A stretch of DNA of 10,104 nt from positions 1-10,104 of the forward strand of contig JAUUYI010000046.1 in the NCBI GenBank assembly GCA_030590525.1. Reading direction: 5' to 3'. This stretch comes from Sedimenticola sp. (GTDB lineage Bacteria > Pseudomonadota > Gammaproteobacteria > Chromatiales > Chromatiaceae). The translations under genes and the position numbers were made by a program. The notes under the pieces are model-generated. The model saw only the letters and a program-made list of their open reading frames with translations, made no database searches and was not told the DNA's origin. Of this stretch, positions 2,953 through 10,104 are shown piece after piece. Numbering within the stretch: position 1 is the stretch's first letter; every line of letters begins with the position of its first letter.

Positions 2953-3624
2953 TCAGTCGTCGCCGGAGAAGAAACCCAGGATCTGCAGCAGGCTGATGAA
3001 GATATTGTAGATGCTGAGGTAGAGGCTGATGGTCATGGTGATGTAATTGGTCTCACCGTCATGGATCATGCGGCTGGTGTCATACAGGATGAAACCACTC
3101 ATGATCATGATCACCACCGACGAGATCGCCAGGGCGAGGGCGGGCATATTGAGAAATATGTTGGCCAACGCTGCCACCAGCACCATCAGCATGCCGGCGA
3201 TCAGGAAACCACCCATGAAGCTGAAATCCTTGCGGGTGGTCAGCGCATAGCCGGAGAGACCCAGGAAGATCACGCCGGTGCCACCAAAGGCCGTGGCAAC
3301 GATCTGGGGCCCGTTGGACATGGCCAGGTACTGATTCAGAATGGGGCCGAGACCAAAACCCATCAGGCCGGTGATGGCAAACACCACCCACAACCCCGAT
3401 GCCGAGTTGGCGGTCTTGGGCAGCACCAGCCAGATCAGGAGCATGGCGCCGCCAATGCTCAACAGGTAGGTCATCGGCGGCATCTGGAGCACCACCGAAA
3501 CTGCCGCCATCACGGCGCTGAAAAACAGTGTCGCCGACAGCAGGGTGTAGGTGTTCTTCAGGACCTTGTTGACCGGTACCGACCTATCCACCGGGCGTGC
3601 AACGGAATAATCCAAGCGATTCAT
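2953..3624 (-). CDS. yccA: YccA, Bax inhibitor-1 family membrane protein (FtsH modulator)
   Basis: This 223-residue protein closely resembles E. coli YccA (219 aa). Shared blocks include V-L-K-N-T-Y-x-L-L-S near the N-terminus, L-G-P-I-L-N, Y-A-L-T-T-R-K-D-F-S-F and the ending L-L-Q-I-L-G-F. In E. coli, YccA is both a substrate and an inhibitor of the membrane protease FtsH. It has a cytosolic N-terminal tail, here about residues 1-28, followed by seven hydrophobic helices. Of the two aspartates that form the pH sensor in B. subtilis YetJ, only the first seems present (L-Y-D-T, D182); the second site is Y-L-S-x-x-N (S204), as in E. coli YccA. The ATG at 3624-3622 is preceded by AGGAG about 11 bases upstream. 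The gene heads a possible operon with the 59-aa gene. Confidence 0.92.
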   Translation of the reverse strand: MNRLDYSVARPVDRSVPVNKVLKNTYTLLSATLFFSAVMAAVSVVLQMPPMTYLLSIGGAMLLIWLVLPKTANSASGLWVVFAITGLMGFGLGPILNQYLAMSNGPQIVATAFGGTGVIFLGLSGYALTTRKDFSFMGGFLIAGMLMVLVAALANIFLNMPALALAISSVVIMIMSGFILYDTSRMIHDGETNYITMTISLYLSIYNIFISLLQILGFFSGDD

Positions 3625-4474: not shown

Positions 4475-4634
4475 AAAAATCAAAATCAGCGACCTTTTGG
4501 AGAAGCATGCGATTGCATGCTGCCTCGGTCCCCGGTCCTTGCTGATTCATATTTACCGCGCTCTGCCGCTAAACAGGGAAATCTTCCCTCAAACATTTTC
4601 TTTGCAGCCACTCACCCGGCTGCCGGGCAGAGCA

Positions 4635-7106
4635 ATGAGCGCAATCGACCCCAACAGACACGATCACGGCTACCTGGGAACGGGGCCGGAAGAGATCCGG
4701 CACGCCATCAACAACCGCCTGGTCTACTCCATCGGCAAAGACCCTTTTACCGCTGTCGACCACGACTGGCTGCAGGCCCTCTCCTATGTGGTACGGGACC
4801 GATTGATCGAGCGCTGGATGGATACCCACCGCAACTATTCCCGACGTGACTGCAAACGGGTCTATTATCTCTCTCTCGAATTCCTTATCGGCCGCAGCCT
4901 GAACAATGCCCTGCTCAACATCGGCTTTCGCGATAATACGGCACAGGCACTCGAGTCACTGGGGCTCGATCTGGAGACGATGCAGACCCTGGAGCATGAT
5001 GCCGCCCTGGGCAACGGGGGGCTGGGACGCCTGGCGGCCTGTATTCTGGACTCCATCGCCACCCTTGATCTTCCCGCCACCGGTTACGGGATCCGTTACG
5101 AGTACGGCATGTTCCGCCAGCAGATCGAGAACGGAGAACAGCGGGAGCAGCCGGAAAACTGGCTGGCGGCGGGCAACCCCTGGGAGTTTTCCCGGCCCGA
5201 GGTGAGGTATCTGATCCGTTTCGGCGGGCAGGTTCAGGTTTCCACGGATGAGACCGGCAGGCTGAAACACCAATGGGGCGGCGGGGATGAAGTGATGGCC
5301 ATGGCCTTCGATACCCCGATCCCCGGCTACCACACCGAGACCGTCAACAATCTTCGGCTCTGGTCTGCCAGGGCCAGCAGCGACTTCGATCTTGGCTGCT
5401 TCAATCAGGGCAACTATATCAAGGCGGTGGAGCGGAAAACCCTGTCGGAAAACCTCTCCAAGGTGCTCTATCCGGATGACAGTTATGCGGAAAACCAGGA
5501 ACTGAGACTGCGCCAGCAGTACTTCTTCGTCAGTGCCTCACTGCAGGATATCGTACGCCGCTTCCTGCAGCACCACAGCGATCTGAAGCAACTGCCGGAC
5601 AAAGTGGCCATCCAACTGAACGATACCCACCCGGCCATCGCCATTCCGGAGTTGATGCGCATCCTGATAGATCAGCACCAGCTGGAGTGGCAGCCGGCCT
5701 GGGAGATCACAGCCCGGACCTTCAGCTACACCAACCATACCCTGCTGCCGGAGGCACTGGAGAGTTGGCCACTGAAGCTGCTCGAAGGCCTGCTTCCCCG
5801 ACACATGCAGATAATATATGAGATCAACGGTCACTTTCTGGAATGGGTAAGCAACCAGCACCCGGGGAACCATGACCTGCTCCGACGTCTCTCCATCATC
5901 GAAGAAGAGAACGGTCAGCGGGTGCGTATGGCACACCTGGCCATCGTCGGCAGCCACAAGGTGAACGGCGTCTCAGCCCTCCATACCAAACTATTGAAAA
6001 GGGAGACATTCGCCGACTTCCACCGCATCTATCCGGGTAAATTCATCAATATCACCAACGGGATAACCCCCCGGCGCTGGCTGCACCAGTCAAACCCGGC
6101 ACTGAGCAGCCTGATCTGCGATACCATCGGCAGCGGCTGGATCGATGACCTGCAACAGTTGGAACGCTTGTTGCCGCTGGCGGATGACGCCGCCTTCAGG
6201 GCTGAGTTCGCCGCCGCCAAGCGCACCAACAAGCTCCACCTGGCCAACCTTGCCGCGCGCTTCCTGGGTACCACTATCGACCCCGACAGCCTGTTCGACG
6301 TGCAGGTGAAGCGTATTCACGAGTACAAACGGCAACTGCTGAATCTGCTGCGGGTGGTCACCCTCTACAACCGCCTGCACGACGACCCGGGGCTCGATCT
6401 GATTCCCCGCACCGTCCTGATCGGTGGTAAAGCAGCCCCGGGCTATGCCATGGCCAAGCTGATCATCCGCCTGATCAACGATGTGGCCGGCGTGATCGAC
6501 AGCGACCCGACGATCAAAGGGCACCTGAAACTGCTGTTCATCCCCAACTACGACGTCACCACCGCCGGCGACATCATCCCCGCCGCCGATCTCTCACAGC
6601 AGATATCCACCGCAGGGATGGAGGCCTCCGGCACCGGCAACATGAAGCTGGCTCTCAACGGCACCATTACCATGGGCACCCTGGATGGCGCCAATATAGA
6701 GATCCACGACCGGGTGGGAGAGGAGAACATCTTCACCTTCGGCCTCACGGCAGACGAGGTGAAAGAGTCCAAGGCCCGGGGGTACGATCCCCGCCGTGTC
6801 TATGAGGCCGACCCGGAGCTGAGACGCGCCGTCGACCAGATCGCTGCAGGCCACTTCTCGCCCACGGACCCGGACCGCTACCGATCCATCGTCGACAGCC
6901 TGCTGAACGGCGGCGACCCCTTCATGGTACTGGCCGACTACCGCGCCTACCTGGCATGCGACGCCCGGGCCGACCGCCTCTACTGTGATCCGGACGCCTG
7001 GTTTCGCAGCGCCATCATCAACACCGCCCGCATGGGGTTTTTCTCCAGCGACCGGACGGTGTCGGAATATGCGGAGAAAATATGGGGAATAACCCCCGTA
7101 GACTGA
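4635..7106 (+). CDS. glgP: Glycogen/maltodextrin phosphorylase
   Basis: This PLP-dependent enzyme cleaves alpha-1,4-glucan ends with phosphate to release glucose 1-phosphate in the cytoplasm. The 823 residues match the family length (E. coli GlgP 815). Visible landmarks are GNGGLGRLAA (from residue 126), D-T-H-P-A (330-334), the active-site His of Y-T-N-H-T (H368), and V-K-R-I-H-E-Y-K-R-Q-L-L-N with K559, R560 and K565. The PLP lysine is K671 in EASGTGNMKLALNG. I chose the ATG at 4635 (M-S-A-I-D-P) because the frame upstream to TTG 4497 encodes 46 residues unlike the family. The ribosome site is weak (GGGCAGAGCA). A small oddity is N-Y-D-V-T-T-A-G-D before I-I-P-A-A-D-L, where animal and E. 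coli enzymes have V-S-x-A-E-K. No other glycogen gene adjoins it. GlgP and MalP cannot be told apart with certainty. Confidence 0.93.
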   Translation: MSAIDPNRHDHGYLGTGPEEIRHAINNRLVYSIGKDPFTAVDHDWLQALSYVVRDRLIERWMDTHRNYSRRDCKRVYYLSLEFLIGRSLNNALLNIGFRDNTAQALESLGLDLETMQTLEHDAALGNGGLGRLAACILDSIATLDLPATGYGIRYEYGMFRQQIENGEQREQPENWLAAGNPWEFSRPEVRYLIRFGGQVQVSTDETGRLKHQWGGGDEVMAMAFDTPIPGYHTETVNNLRLWSARASSDFDLGCFNQGNYIKAVERKTLSENLSKVLYPDDSYAENQELRLRQQYFFVSASLQDIVRRFLQHHSDLKQLPDKVAIQLNDTHPAIAIPELMRILIDQHQLEWQPAWEITARTFSYTNHTLLPEALESWPLKLLEGLLPRHMQIIYEINGHFLEWVSNQHPGNHDLLRRLSIIEEENGQRVRMAHLAIVGSHKVNGVSALHTKLLKRETFADFHRIYPGKFINITNGITPRRWLHQSNPALSSLICDTIGSGWIDDLQQLERLLPLADDAAFRAEFAAAKRTNKLHLANLAARFLGTTIDPDSLFDVQVKRIHEYKRQLLNLLRVVTLYNRLHDDPGLDLIPRTVLIGGKAAPGYAMAKLIIRLINDVAGVIDSDPTIKGHLKLLFIPNYDVTTAGDIIPAADLSQQISTAGMEASGTGNMKLALNGTITMGTLDGANIEIHDRVGEENIFTFGLTADEVKESKARGYDPRRVYEADPELRRAVDQIAAGHFSPTDPDRYRSIVDSLLNGGDPFMVLADYRAYLACDARADRLYCDPDAWFRSAIINTARMGFFSSDRTVSEYAEKIWGITPVD

Positions 7107-7147: not shown

Positions 7148-7459
7148 ATGACACTCGAACCTGACATCACCGGCATCCTCTGGAGAGCCAATTTTCCTGA
7201 TTTCTTTCTCTGGGCAGAGTGGGAAGATGAAGAGGCATCTGTATTCTTCCACCAGGGTTCAGGGGAGACGCTGCTACTGAACCCGTTGGGCGCCTATTTA
7301 TTGAAGACCATCTGCAGCGAGGGTATATCGATCGAGAAACTCGCCCATCGGACAGCGCGGTATTTTGACCTGCCCGTGGATAAAGCGCTGCTGGGTACCA
7401 TCAACATGAGCCTGCGCACCTTCGAACAGAAGGGCCTGGTCCTCTCCTCAGTCTCGTGA
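7148..7459 (+). CDS. PqqD-related peptide chaperone (HPr-rel-A system type)
   Basis: This is a 103-residue protein of the PqqD fold. Members of that superfamily are winged-helix domains that bind the leader of a precursor peptide and present it to a modifying enzyme. The pattern fits: a W-x-x-W-E-D-E-E-A-S-V-F-F strand, then G-S-G-E-T-L-L-L-N-P-L-G-A-Y-L-L-K-T-I leading into a helix, a second helical half (I-E-K-L-A-H-R-T-A-R-Y-F-D), and a final L-x-x-F-E-Q-K-G-L-V. The start at 7148 has no Shine-Dalgarno sequence, but the family N-terminus (tryptophan a few residues in) agrees with it. It begins 41 bases after glgP and overlaps the kinase gene at its stop. No radical SAM or cyclodehydratase partner is nearby, so the client and chemistry remain open. 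Confidence 0.75.
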   Translation: MTLEPDITGILWRANFPDFFLWAEWEDEEASVFFHQGSGETLLLNPLGAYLLKTICSEGISIEKLAHRTARYFDLPVDKALLGTINMSLRTFEQKGLVLSSVS

Positions 7460-8361
7460 AACCCCTCAATCTCAAGCAGGGTAAAATTGCTCACTTGTTG
7501 CGCAACGACGGGGTACGGATTCAGATCGGCCCGTTCGCCGTCAGTCTGCGTTCACGATTGAGAAGAGTCGCCGAACAGATCGCCTTCTTCTATGCTGACT
7601 ACCCCAGGGTAGCAGAGGATGCGTTCGTGGATTTCCACATTCAGATCAACAACCCGACTGGCCTGCGGCACTGGATACGTCCCCAGGCCATCTTCTCCTT
7701 TGACGGTTTCGCACCTTTCAAGCCCCTACCCGAAGATCAGGCCTTCGCCATGTTCGAATGGGGTTTGAACTGGTGTATCGCCACCACCGCACACCAGTAT
7801 CTCATCGTACATGCCGCGGTCGTGGCAAAAAATGGGCAGGCGGTCATCCTTCCCGGTGAACCCGGGGCCGGCAAGAGTACCTTGTGCGCGGCACTGGTCA
7901 GCCGGGGATGGCGGTTGCTGTCGGACGAGATGGCAATGATTGACCCCGGGGGTTTGAGTATTACGCCCGTACCCCGCCCGATCGGCCTGAAAAATGAATC
8001 CATTGCCATCATGAAAAATTATGCTGACGGGGTGCAGATCGGTCCACCTGTAACAGACACGGCCAAAGGTACAGTGGCGCACATGCGTCCCCCGGCTGAA
8101 AGCGTTGCGCATGCGGATAGCGATGCTCAGCCTGAACACATCATCTTTCCGGCCTATTCCGCAGGGGCCGACACTCAACTCGAAAGAATCGAAAAGGCCC
8201 ATGGGCTCACCCGAATCGCGGAGCAGAGTTTCAACTACCACATCCTGGGAAGGGAGGGCTTCGAAACACTGACGAGGCTGGTCTCGAGATGTCCGGCCTT
8301 CGACCTCCGCTATTCGCAGCTCGATTCGGCTATCGCCAGGATCGATGCGCTGATCACCTGA
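7456..8361 (+). CDS. HprK-related kinase A
   Basis: This 301-residue protein has an HPr kinase-like P-loop domain. The Walker A motif G-E-P-G-A-G-K-S-T occupies residues 134-142 (K140) and is preceded by L-I-V-H-A-A-V-V, the strand typical of HprK. An acidic pair follows in L-L-S-D-E (D157, E158). The N-terminal 115 residues are a separate region of family type (I-G-P-F-A-V-S-L-R-S-R-L). Classical HprK phosphorylates a serine of HPr, but this family lacks the usual PTS context and its target is unknown. The start is GTG at 7456, overlapping the preceding TGA as GTGA, so translation of the two genes is probably coupled. The next gene starts 16 bases downstream. Confidence 0.82.
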   Translation: MKPLNLKQGKIAHLLRNDGVRIQIGPFAVSLRSRLRRVAEQIAFFYADYPRVAEDAFVDFHIQINNPTGLRHWIRPQAIFSFDGFAPFKPLPEDQAFAMFEWGLNWCIATTAHQYLIVHAAVVAKNGQAVILPGEPGAGKSTLCAALVSRGWRLLSDEMAMIDPGGLSITPVPRPIGLKNESIAIMKNYADGVQIGPPVTDTAKGTVAHMRPPAESVAHADSDAQPEHIIFPAYSAGADTQLERIEKAHGLTRIAEQSFNYHILGREGFETLTRLVSRCPAFDLRYSQLDSAIARIDALIT

Positions 8362-8377
8362 TTCCCTTGGCTACCCA

Positions 8378-9508
8378 ATGAAAAAGAGCTGCCTGCTGAC
8401 CGACACCCTGTGTCGTCCCTCCACTGCGAGCCACTACTCAGCCGCAGAGTGGGATCTTCTGTTACGCCAGGCCCGGGCGGCTAACCTGCTGGCACAGCTC
8501 GGGGTGCGCCTGGAGCAATGTTCGGAACAGATGGAGATAGCGCACAGCGTGGCCCGGCATCTCCGCTCGGCCCGGCTCATTGTCAAACGCCAGAACAATG
8601 CCATCCGCTGGGAAGTGAGCCTGCTGCAACATGCCCTGCATGACCTGGCCGTTCCTGTCGTGCTGCTGAAGGGTGCCGCCTATGTGCTGGCGGACCTCCC
8701 CAACAGCAACGGCCGACTGTTCCAGGATATCGACATCCTGGTGCCTCGTCCCGCCTTGAAAGAGGTGGAAAACCGGTTGCGGCGGTGGGGCTGGAGAAGC
8801 ACCCACAACAACGCCTATGACCAGCGCTACTACCGCCGCTGGATGCACGAACTCCCCCCCATGGAACATGCACAGCGTCGGACGGTGCTGGACGTACATC
8901 ACTCGATACTACCACTGACGGCACGGCTTCACCCTGACCCCAGGAAACTGATCGGGAATGCGGTTGCCGCCCCGGGCAACGAGGATATCTACCTGCTCTC
9001 CCCTGAGGACATGGTGCTGCACAGCATGACCCACCTGTTCCACGACGGGGAGTTGGAGAATGGCCTGAGGGATCTGGTCGATATGGAGATCCTTCTTCAA
9101 CACTTCGGGAAAGAAGCCGGGTTCCAGACCCGTTTGTGCGAACGGGCGCGGCTACTGGAACTCACCCGTCCGCTCTATTATGGATTGAGATACGTTGAGC
9201 GGGTATTTCAGGCGCCTGTTGCAGAAGAGACCCGTAAAACAGTGTCGTCCTGGGGGCCGGGGTGGCTGCTGGGTGGTTTGATGGACTTCCTGTTCCGCGA
9301 GGCACTGCAGCCAAGCCACGCATCCTGCACGACCGCTGCAACCTCCCTCGCCCGCTGGCTGCTCTACCTGAGATCACACTACCTGCGGATGCCACTGAGG
9401 CTGTTGATCCCTCATCTCATCCACAAGGCGCTGGTGAAAAAAGGGGATAATGAGATCGAGATACCCAAGGCGCTGAGAAAGATTATCCCCGACGCCGATA
9501 ACCGGTGA
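8378..9508 (+). CDS. Nucleotidyltransferase-fold protein (NTP_transf_5-like)
   Basis: This 376-residue protein carries the pattern of the uncharacterised nucleotidyltransferase family (NTP_transf_5 type). V-V-L-L-K-G-A-A-Y-V-L lies at about residues 93-103, and R-L-F-Q-D-I-D-I-L-V at 113-122. D117 and D119 are the expected metal ligands. A further D-V-H-H and H-S-M-T-H-L-F-H segments are typical of the middle of this family, and the C-terminal third is basic. Such proteins are often found next to HprK-related and PqqD-related genes. The reaction is unknown; transfer of a nucleotide to a protein or peptide is a reasonable guess. There is no clear ribosome site before ATG 8378, so it may depend on translation of the kinase gene. 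It is convergent with the exported-protein gene. Confidence 0.78.
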   Translation: MKKSCLLTDTLCRPSTASHYSAAEWDLLLRQARAANLLAQLGVRLEQCSEQMEIAHSVARHLRSARLIVKRQNNAIRWEVSLLQHALHDLAVPVVLLKGAAYVLADLPNSNGRLFQDIDILVPRPALKEVENRLRRWGWRSTHNNAYDQRYYRRWMHELPPMEHAQRRTVLDVHHSILPLTARLHPDPRKLIGNAVAAPGNEDIYLLSPEDMVLHSMTHLFHDGELENGLRDLVDMEILLQHFGKEAGFQTRLCERARLLELTRPLYYGLRYVERVFQAPVAEETRKTVSSWGPGWLLGGLMDFLFREALQPSHASCTTAATSLARWLLYLRSHYLRMPLRLLIPHLIHKALVKKGDNEIEIPKALRKIIPDADNR

Positions 9509-9523
9509 GTGCCGCATCGCAAA

Positions 9524-10104
9524 CTACTGCCACGTTGTCTCCAGGTAACCTTTTAATCCATCAAAGTGTGATACAAAAGCGGCATGTTGTCCGGCACACA
9601 AATCCTGCACCTGCATGACACTGAGTGGATAGTCGGGATAGGTTAAAGCATATAAAAGCGCCTTGACACACGCCGCTTCATCCGAATTGGGTGCTTCGCA
9701 CAGGATGCGATACATCGAATTTTGCTCACCGCTTGTGCAGAAAACAGCGTTGAAGGGCGTTCCCTCACTGCAAAGTTTTTTGTCCCACTTACCATTCTCT
9801 TTCCGACATTCAACACACGATGAGGGGAAAGTTTCACCGTCTCCATCGAGTGAATCTGGCACAACGGGTCCCATCTCCCCATTACATCTCATGACATTCC
9901 CTGTAGGCCAAATGCTCGCGTCCGTCCAATCCACAAAAGGGGCTTGCTCGCACAGCCCGCGTTCAGGATTTGAGAGATTCCCTGACAACGCATTCGAGAG
10001 GCAATTCACCCCTGCTGCCCCTAAGACCGGTCGCGCCGCCACCGACATCAGAATCGGCGACGCCAGAAGACCCATTTTGGCAAATCTCCGCCGGCCCTCC
10101 GATA
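9524..10104 (-). CDS. Exported cysteine-rich protein with Tat-like leader (start outside window)
   Basis: The frame ends in TAG at 9526-9524 and is still open at the window edge; the last visible codons upstream of ATG 10075 read S-E-G-R-R-R-F-A-K. Together they give RRRFAKMGLLASPILMSV followed by A-A-R-P-V-L-G-A. That is a twin-arginine-like box, a hydrophobic stretch and a likely cleavage site. The mature part (about 160 residues) has ten cysteines, including C-V-E-C, an early S-G-N-L-S-N-P segment and a hydrophobic C-terminal block (A-L-L-Y-A-L-T-Y-P-D-Y-P). I recall similar leaders and S-G-N-L-S motifs in proteins encoded beside HPr-rel-A trios, but cannot confirm it here. ATG 10075 also has GGAG about 10 bases upstream and could be the start; that would drop the arginine box. 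Function unknown. Confidence 0.7.
   Translation of the reverse strand, partial: SEGRRRFAKMGLLASPILMSVAARPVLGAAGVNCLSNALSGNLSNPERGLCEQAPFVDWTDASIWPTGNVMRCNGEMGPVVPDSLDGDGETFPSSCVECRKENGKWDKKLCSEGTPFNAVFCTSGEQNSMYRILCEAPNSDEAACVKALLYALTYPDYPLSVMQVQDLCAGQHAAFVSHFDGLKGYLETTWQ

Follow-up and report, generated by a model that had tools for sequence, protein, structure and literature searches.

The window (the whole stretch of DNA analysed, 10,104 bases) carries one copy of a four-gene system that is widespread in Proteobacteria. Three of its genes, encoding a PqqD-like leader-binding protein, an HprK-related kinase and a nucleotidyltransferase, are the HPr-rel-A set of NCBIfam, and the exported protein encoded beside them, called the client below for its proposed role, is the regular fourth gene of that set. 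With a probability of about 0.68, the four genes form a modification-and-export system in which the client leader would dock on the PqqD-like protein, a client serine would be phosphorylated, the nucleotidyltransferase would extend the phosphate and the product would leave the cell by the Tat route.

Locus and gene order

The window is the entire contig C112 of genome G000 (completeness 70 percent). The features were placed as follows:

7148..7459, + strand, PqqD-like leader-binding (RRE) protein, 103 aa
7456..8361, + strand, HprK-related kinase A, 301 aa, begins with GTG and overlaps the preceding stop as GTGA
8378..9508, + strand, nucleotidyltransferase of the NTP_transf_5 family, 376 aa, 16 bases after the kinase
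9524..10104, - strand, Cys-rich exported protein, client of class 1, open frame at 9524-10102, 192 aa readable, its start lost at the contig end
10019..10093, - strand, twin-arginine leader of the client, residues 4-28, RRRF to VLG
9950..10003, - strand, Ser stretch of the client, C34 to C51, with S36, S40 and S44 as candidate phospho-acceptors
9533..9949, - strand, folded C-terminal domain of the client, residues 52-190

The original prediction had described the packing of the trio (GTGA overlap, 16-base gap) and, 15 bases from the nucleotidyltransferase gene, a convergent gene for a protein with ten cysteines and an RRRF...ASPILMSV leader, and all of this is seen in the sequence. Because the window spans the whole contig and the client gene is cut at the contig end, the true start of the client is missing; 3 residues are readable ahead of the twin arginines, and 37 in the same-genus homologue at locus L061 (script-called start). 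The commonest gene order was client, PqqD-like protein, kinase and nucleotidyltransferase, with the client upstream on the same strand in 146/153 kinase-client placements; the convergent order of the window is a minority arrangement that was also found in L061, L064, L078 and L080. The remainder of the window holds a partial YbbP-like ABC permease (40-2178), a YccA/Bax1-I protein (2953-3624) and a long ORF (4497-7106) resembling glycogen phosphorylase by eye.

Linkage of the client to the trio

A single-sequence search with the window client found it in 14/274 genomes of the class, its own included, and in all 14 it lay on the same stretch as the kinase. The scan of named genomes met at least 501 kinase loci, of which the best 80 were taken; the client adjoined the trio in 76 of these 80, all four genes were present in 75, and the four loci without a client were L093, L105, L109 and L138, of which L105 and L109 start at a contig edge. 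Across the 274 genomes sampled from the class, the kinase exceeded its cut-off in 27 genomes and the client profile matched in 31. Client-profile matches were present in 24/27 genomes with the kinase vs 7/247 without it (Fisher test, 4e-25); the co-occurrence across genomes that the original prediction had set as its check is thus borne out. The coordinates of kinase and client were adjacent in 23 of the 24 genomes, the exception being G015. Three genomes had the kinase alone: in G134 and G091 the locus turned out, once the stretch was fetched, to contain a divergent client, and in G259 it is cut by a contig edge. Four of the 7 profile-only genomes matched through the C-terminal domain alone and three chiefly through the leader. 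When the list was widened to 166 kinase loci, 151 yielded a client and 15 none, some of the picks being weak (leader E-values 0.2-0.7).

The proposal that the trio acts on the exported protein as its client has strong linkage support from the named-genome scan, the class sample and the tracking of client class with kinase clade described below, and is very probably correct. In a Thiobacillus locus (L140:2584-8038), a single client is flanked by two kinase-nucleotidyltransferase pairs.

The enzyme trio

The window kinase scored 395.4 bits against the NCBIfam model HprK_rel_A (TIGR04352; curated cut-off 200) and is thus a clear member of HPr-rel-A. The trio had been called an orphan, which is wrong, HprK_rel_A being a named NCBIfam family that is over its cut-off in 27/274 genomes of the class. 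Its segment containing the His, P-loop and Asp aligns with 1jb1 and 2qmh, so that in the active site it resembles HPr(Ser) kinase/phosphatase, but it differs from that enzyme in its partner genes and in scoring 26.3 bits against TIGR00679, far under the cut-off of 240. A regulatory HPr kinase with incidental neighbours would be compatible with the presence of HPr in 39/41 trio genomes, and is nevertheless very improbable given the TIGR00679 score and the coordinates of HPr: no HPr match lay <20 kb from the kinase in these genomes, and in ten of them (G015, G284, G285, G299, G312, G313, G316, G318, G321 and G326) a separate, weaker HprK-like match lay 1.2-1.9 kb from HPr. The absence of an HPr gene from the window, as originally noted, holds, the HPr gene of this genome being on another contig (C74).

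The PqqD-like protein scored 30 bits against TIGR04353 (HPr-rel-A PqqD-like chaperone), under the cut-off of 35, and a profile built from 24 relatives matched the PDB entries for TbiB1 (E 6e-6) and TfuB1 (E 5e-4), which we take to be lasso B1 proteins. Despite its sub-cut-off score, we still place it with the HPr-rel-A set by position and profile. The nucleotidyltransferase scored 190 bits against PF14907 (cut-off 31), and K98-G99, D117, D119 and D172, presumably catalytic, were invariant among 26 relatives. The HPr-rel-A names seen in NCBIfam cover the kinase and the PqqD-like protein, and the clients scanned matched NCBIfam weakly.

Client leader, serines and domain

The clients share a common twin-arginine leader and have two different bodies. 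In class 1, to which the window client belongs, the serines stand directly behind the leader in an S-x3-S-x3-S stretch; in class 2 the leader is kept, the body is different and a C-x-x-S-[FLI] motif lies at the C-terminus. Clients were found with a profile that takes in the leader and the serines, so that the conservation counts for both hold partly by construction: Arg-Arg was present in 113/113 aligned client rows (109/109 once duplicates were dropped), and among the 103 distinct class-1 rows S36 and S40 were each present in 103/103 and S44 in 90/103, this third serine being absent in 13. When six class-2 loci were kept (109 rows), the figures were 103/107 for S36, 104/108 for S40 and 90/108 for S44. 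The class-1 cysteines flanking the Ser stretch were conserved in 100/102 rows (C34) and 98/101 rows (C51). The C-terminal block, which had looked conserved in the single sequence, is moderately so; the best conserved part is the leader together with the serine stretch behind it.

In the structural model of the window client, the leader was of low confidence (pLDDT about 50), the Ser stretch had a pLDDT of 62-65 and is therefore probably flexible, and a well-predicted domain began at about residue 55. A PDB fold search with the modelled client gave no match, searches of the window client against Pfam and NCBIfam gave none up to E 0.1, and among the clients scanned there was no convincing match to either collection, with weak NCBIfam matches only. 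By sequence, the exported client appears to fit no described family. The NCBIfam TAT model TIGR01409 matched 4/71 clients weakly (best E 0.056), and Pfam TAT_signal (PF10518) matched 1/9 class-2 clients at 18.4 bits, under its cut-off of 22.7, and no class-1 client at E 0.01. The C-terminal domain of the client also ends large secreted proteins that have no leader, at L229:2714-4153 (CTPGYW...) and L230:3920-5872; no kinase was found in the stretches fetched for these two loci.

Client classes and the kinase tree

Further class-2 loci were gathered with a class-2 kinase as the query. The strict class-1 motif C..S..SGNxS was found in 64/151 clients vs 0/11,672 of the remaining ORFs read in six frames from these loci, and the strict class-2 motif [STAGR]C[WFYLMIN]xS[FLI], sought in the last 26 residues, in 32/56 clients without the loose class-1 pattern vs 15/11,672 other ORFs. 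This contrast is flattered, since these clients also supplied the motifs and most of the control ORFs are non-coding frames. The aromatic class-2 form [ST]C[WFY]xS[FL] was present in 25/56 clients vs 2/11,672 other ORFs. Elsewhere in the protein, the strict class-2 motif occurred in 0/151 clients; 3/95 clients with the class-1 pattern also had it, and 19/151 clients had neither loose class pattern.

In a kinase tree of 163 rows, a clade of 99 rows contained 81 class-1 and zero class-2 labels, a clade of 43 rows contained 30 class-2 labels and 1 class-1 label, and a further clade of six rows contained 5 class-2 rows. The lone class-1 label in the 43-row clade was L221, whose client ends in a class-2-like motif. 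Client-class labels changed 35 times over the tree, vs a shuffled mean of 67. The tree was made by a quick method in which 47/160 branches were starred, and the branch joining the two big clades was not resolved. Client class follows kinase clade; co-inheritance of the operon alone would also have this effect.

At L226:4934-5209, L227:4555-4749 and 6200-6391, and L228:5191-5451, there are twin-arginine proteins of very small size whose leader includes a YxAP stretch. Weaker HprK-like kinases lie near those of L226 and L227, and GSRK/GSKK repeats occur in those of L227. These proteins may be a third class of client, nearer to the leaders of linear polyphosphorylated peptides (LPP).

Comparison with known systems

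Two published systems resemble the trio. The LPP systems of Bacillota (2026) comprise a leader-binding domain, an HprK-like kinase, an NTP transferase, an SpI peptidase and an MsbA-like transporter, with the kinase LppK placing phosphates on one Ser of the precursor and the clusters often lying within capsular polysaccharide loci (PMC13381572). In lasso peptides, the K enzymes, which phosphorylate the C-terminal Ser, are homologous to HPr kinase, and the nucleotidyltransferase (N) of pseudomycoidin adds one hexose or two to the peptide after its phosphorylation (PMC8498205).

The present system shares with LPP a discrete RRE, an HprK-like kinase and an NTP transferase in one cluster (matched by enzyme type alone), precursors with a conserved N-terminus and a variable remainder, the lack of a conserved lasso protease and a tie to polysaccharide loci (PMC13381572). 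It differs in its twin-arginine leader, where LPP precursors have a [Y/W]xxP leader, in clients that are mostly protein-sized (with a folded domain in the class of the window) and in its occurrence in Proteobacteria rather than Bacillota (PMC13381572). The [Y/W]xxP motif, the one recognised by lasso and LPP leader-binding domains, was essentially absent here: it was found in 6/144 client leader windows, 7/151 clients having yielded no such window, and in 2/121 windows of classes one and two, both times behind the leader core. The leader of the window client has none. SpI-like peptidases were sought with TIGR02228, which we take to cover the SipW type; this model was over its cut-off in 0/41 trio genomes and weak in 4, with none on the stretch of the trio. 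The nine neighbour families scanned do not include an MsbA-like transporter.

The B1, K and N enzymes of paeninodin-type and pseudomycoidin lasso systems correspond in kind to the trio (PMC8498205), and the PqqD-like profile matches B1 structures. Differences from these systems are that the presumed substrate here is a large exported protein and that no B2 protease is encoded on the contig of the trio: the lasso B2 leader protease family (PF13471) matched in 8/41 trio genomes (7 over the cut-off), in none of them on the trio's contig, and gave no match in the window genome. Asn_synthase (PF00733, the macrolactam cyclase type) matched in 40/41 trio genomes, with 4 matches in the window genome, 1 of them among the matches listed. 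Among the matches listed, it lay <5 kb from the kinase only in G249 and G247 (G249:C1:844764-845912 and G247:C2:2710292-2711440), both times in open frames >600 aa; the G249 gene is about 100 bases from the client.

We therefore regard the system as one that would act in the manner of LPP without belonging to them: the enzyme types and a variable precursor are shared, and [Y/W]xxP, SpI and lasso B2 are lacking to the extent given above. The original description of a pathway without the usual RiPP maturases stands for the lasso B2 protease, missing from the trio's contig, but a leader-binding domain, an HprK-like kinase and an NTP transferase are themselves a published set for RiPP maturation.

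Genomic setting

In the flanks of 113 clustered loci, genes for XrtA exopolysaccharide export occurred at 15 loci, PrsT at 10 and PrsK at 9, and nucleotide-sugar genes recurred. An exosortase match was present in 24/27 kinase genomes vs 67/247 without the kinase (Fisher test, 4e-10), and in five genomes (G091, G122, G124, G213 and G237) the exosortase lay <40 kb from the kinase on the same contig. This setting, with the recurrence of XrtA exopolysaccharide genes within the fetched flanks, could mean that the trio modifies some other cell-surface target, for example a polysaccharide precursor, with the exported protein serving as a mere partner or receptor. We consider this improbable, as it leaves the leader-binding domain and the conserved client serines unexplained and as the window genome, at 70 percent completeness, had no exosortase match.

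Proposed pathway

In the modification-and-export system that we favour, the PqqD-like protein would first bind the conserved client leader in the cytoplasm, and the HprK-related kinase would then phosphorylate a conserved client serine. In class 1 this would be one from the S-x3-S-x3-S stretch that directly follows the leader, and in class 2 the one in the C-terminal C-x-x-S-[FLI] motif. That the client is phosphorylated on serine is probable. In the third and weakest step, the NTP_transf_5 enzyme may extend or cap the phosphate, comparable to hexose addition in pseudomycoidin (PMC8498205); by this analogy, the chances that the nucleotidyltransferase acts on the client serine phosphate are about even. 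The client would finally exit through Tat and its leader would be removed, and Tat export is quite probable in view of the twin arginines and of TatC, which was present in 41/41 trio genomes. It is plausible, by analogy with LPP and paeninodin-type lasso peptides, that phosphorylation and the NTP-dependent step precede export (PMC13381572, PMC8498205). The analysis shows the constant grouping of the four genes, the conserved sites, the folds and the agreement of client class with kinase clade; the docking, the modification and its site, and the export route are inferred.

A bolder version of this pathway is offered tentatively and is on balance unlikely: a RiPP-type leader-binding domain would have been recruited to a Tat signal, and whole exported proteins would, before they leave the cell, be phosphorylated and receive a sugar or a nucleotide on that phosphate, which would tie them to the matrix of exopolysaccharide, with two unrelated bodies bearing the acceptor serine at opposite ends. 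The proposed system would fill in the substrate that a widespread kinase family has so far lacked, down to precise candidate serines, and would extend polyphosphorylated-peptide chemistry, known from the 2026 report on Bacillota (PMC13381572), to Proteobacteria, protein-sized clients and another export signal. It ties a system resembling that of the polyphosphorylated peptides statistically to exosortase-bearing genomes.

The client might alternatively be cut after export to yield a small modified peptide (a RiPP signal or antimicrobial), class 2 releasing its C-terminal motif. In 35 clients the strict class-2 serine stands at a distance of 1-16 residues from the C-terminus, one client has just 74 residues (L216), and an HtrA-like protease gene is near the operon in 25/113 clustered loci, three pairs of which are duplicates. 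Such cleavage is unlikely all the same: the modelled class-1 client has a large, confidently folded domain that it would be odd to discard, the nine named neighbour families included no leader peptidase and the SpI family of LPP had no match over its cut-off in the 41 genomes. The HtrA-like serine protease gene, at L057:5214-5972 and 24 other loci, may encode a client-processing enzyme.
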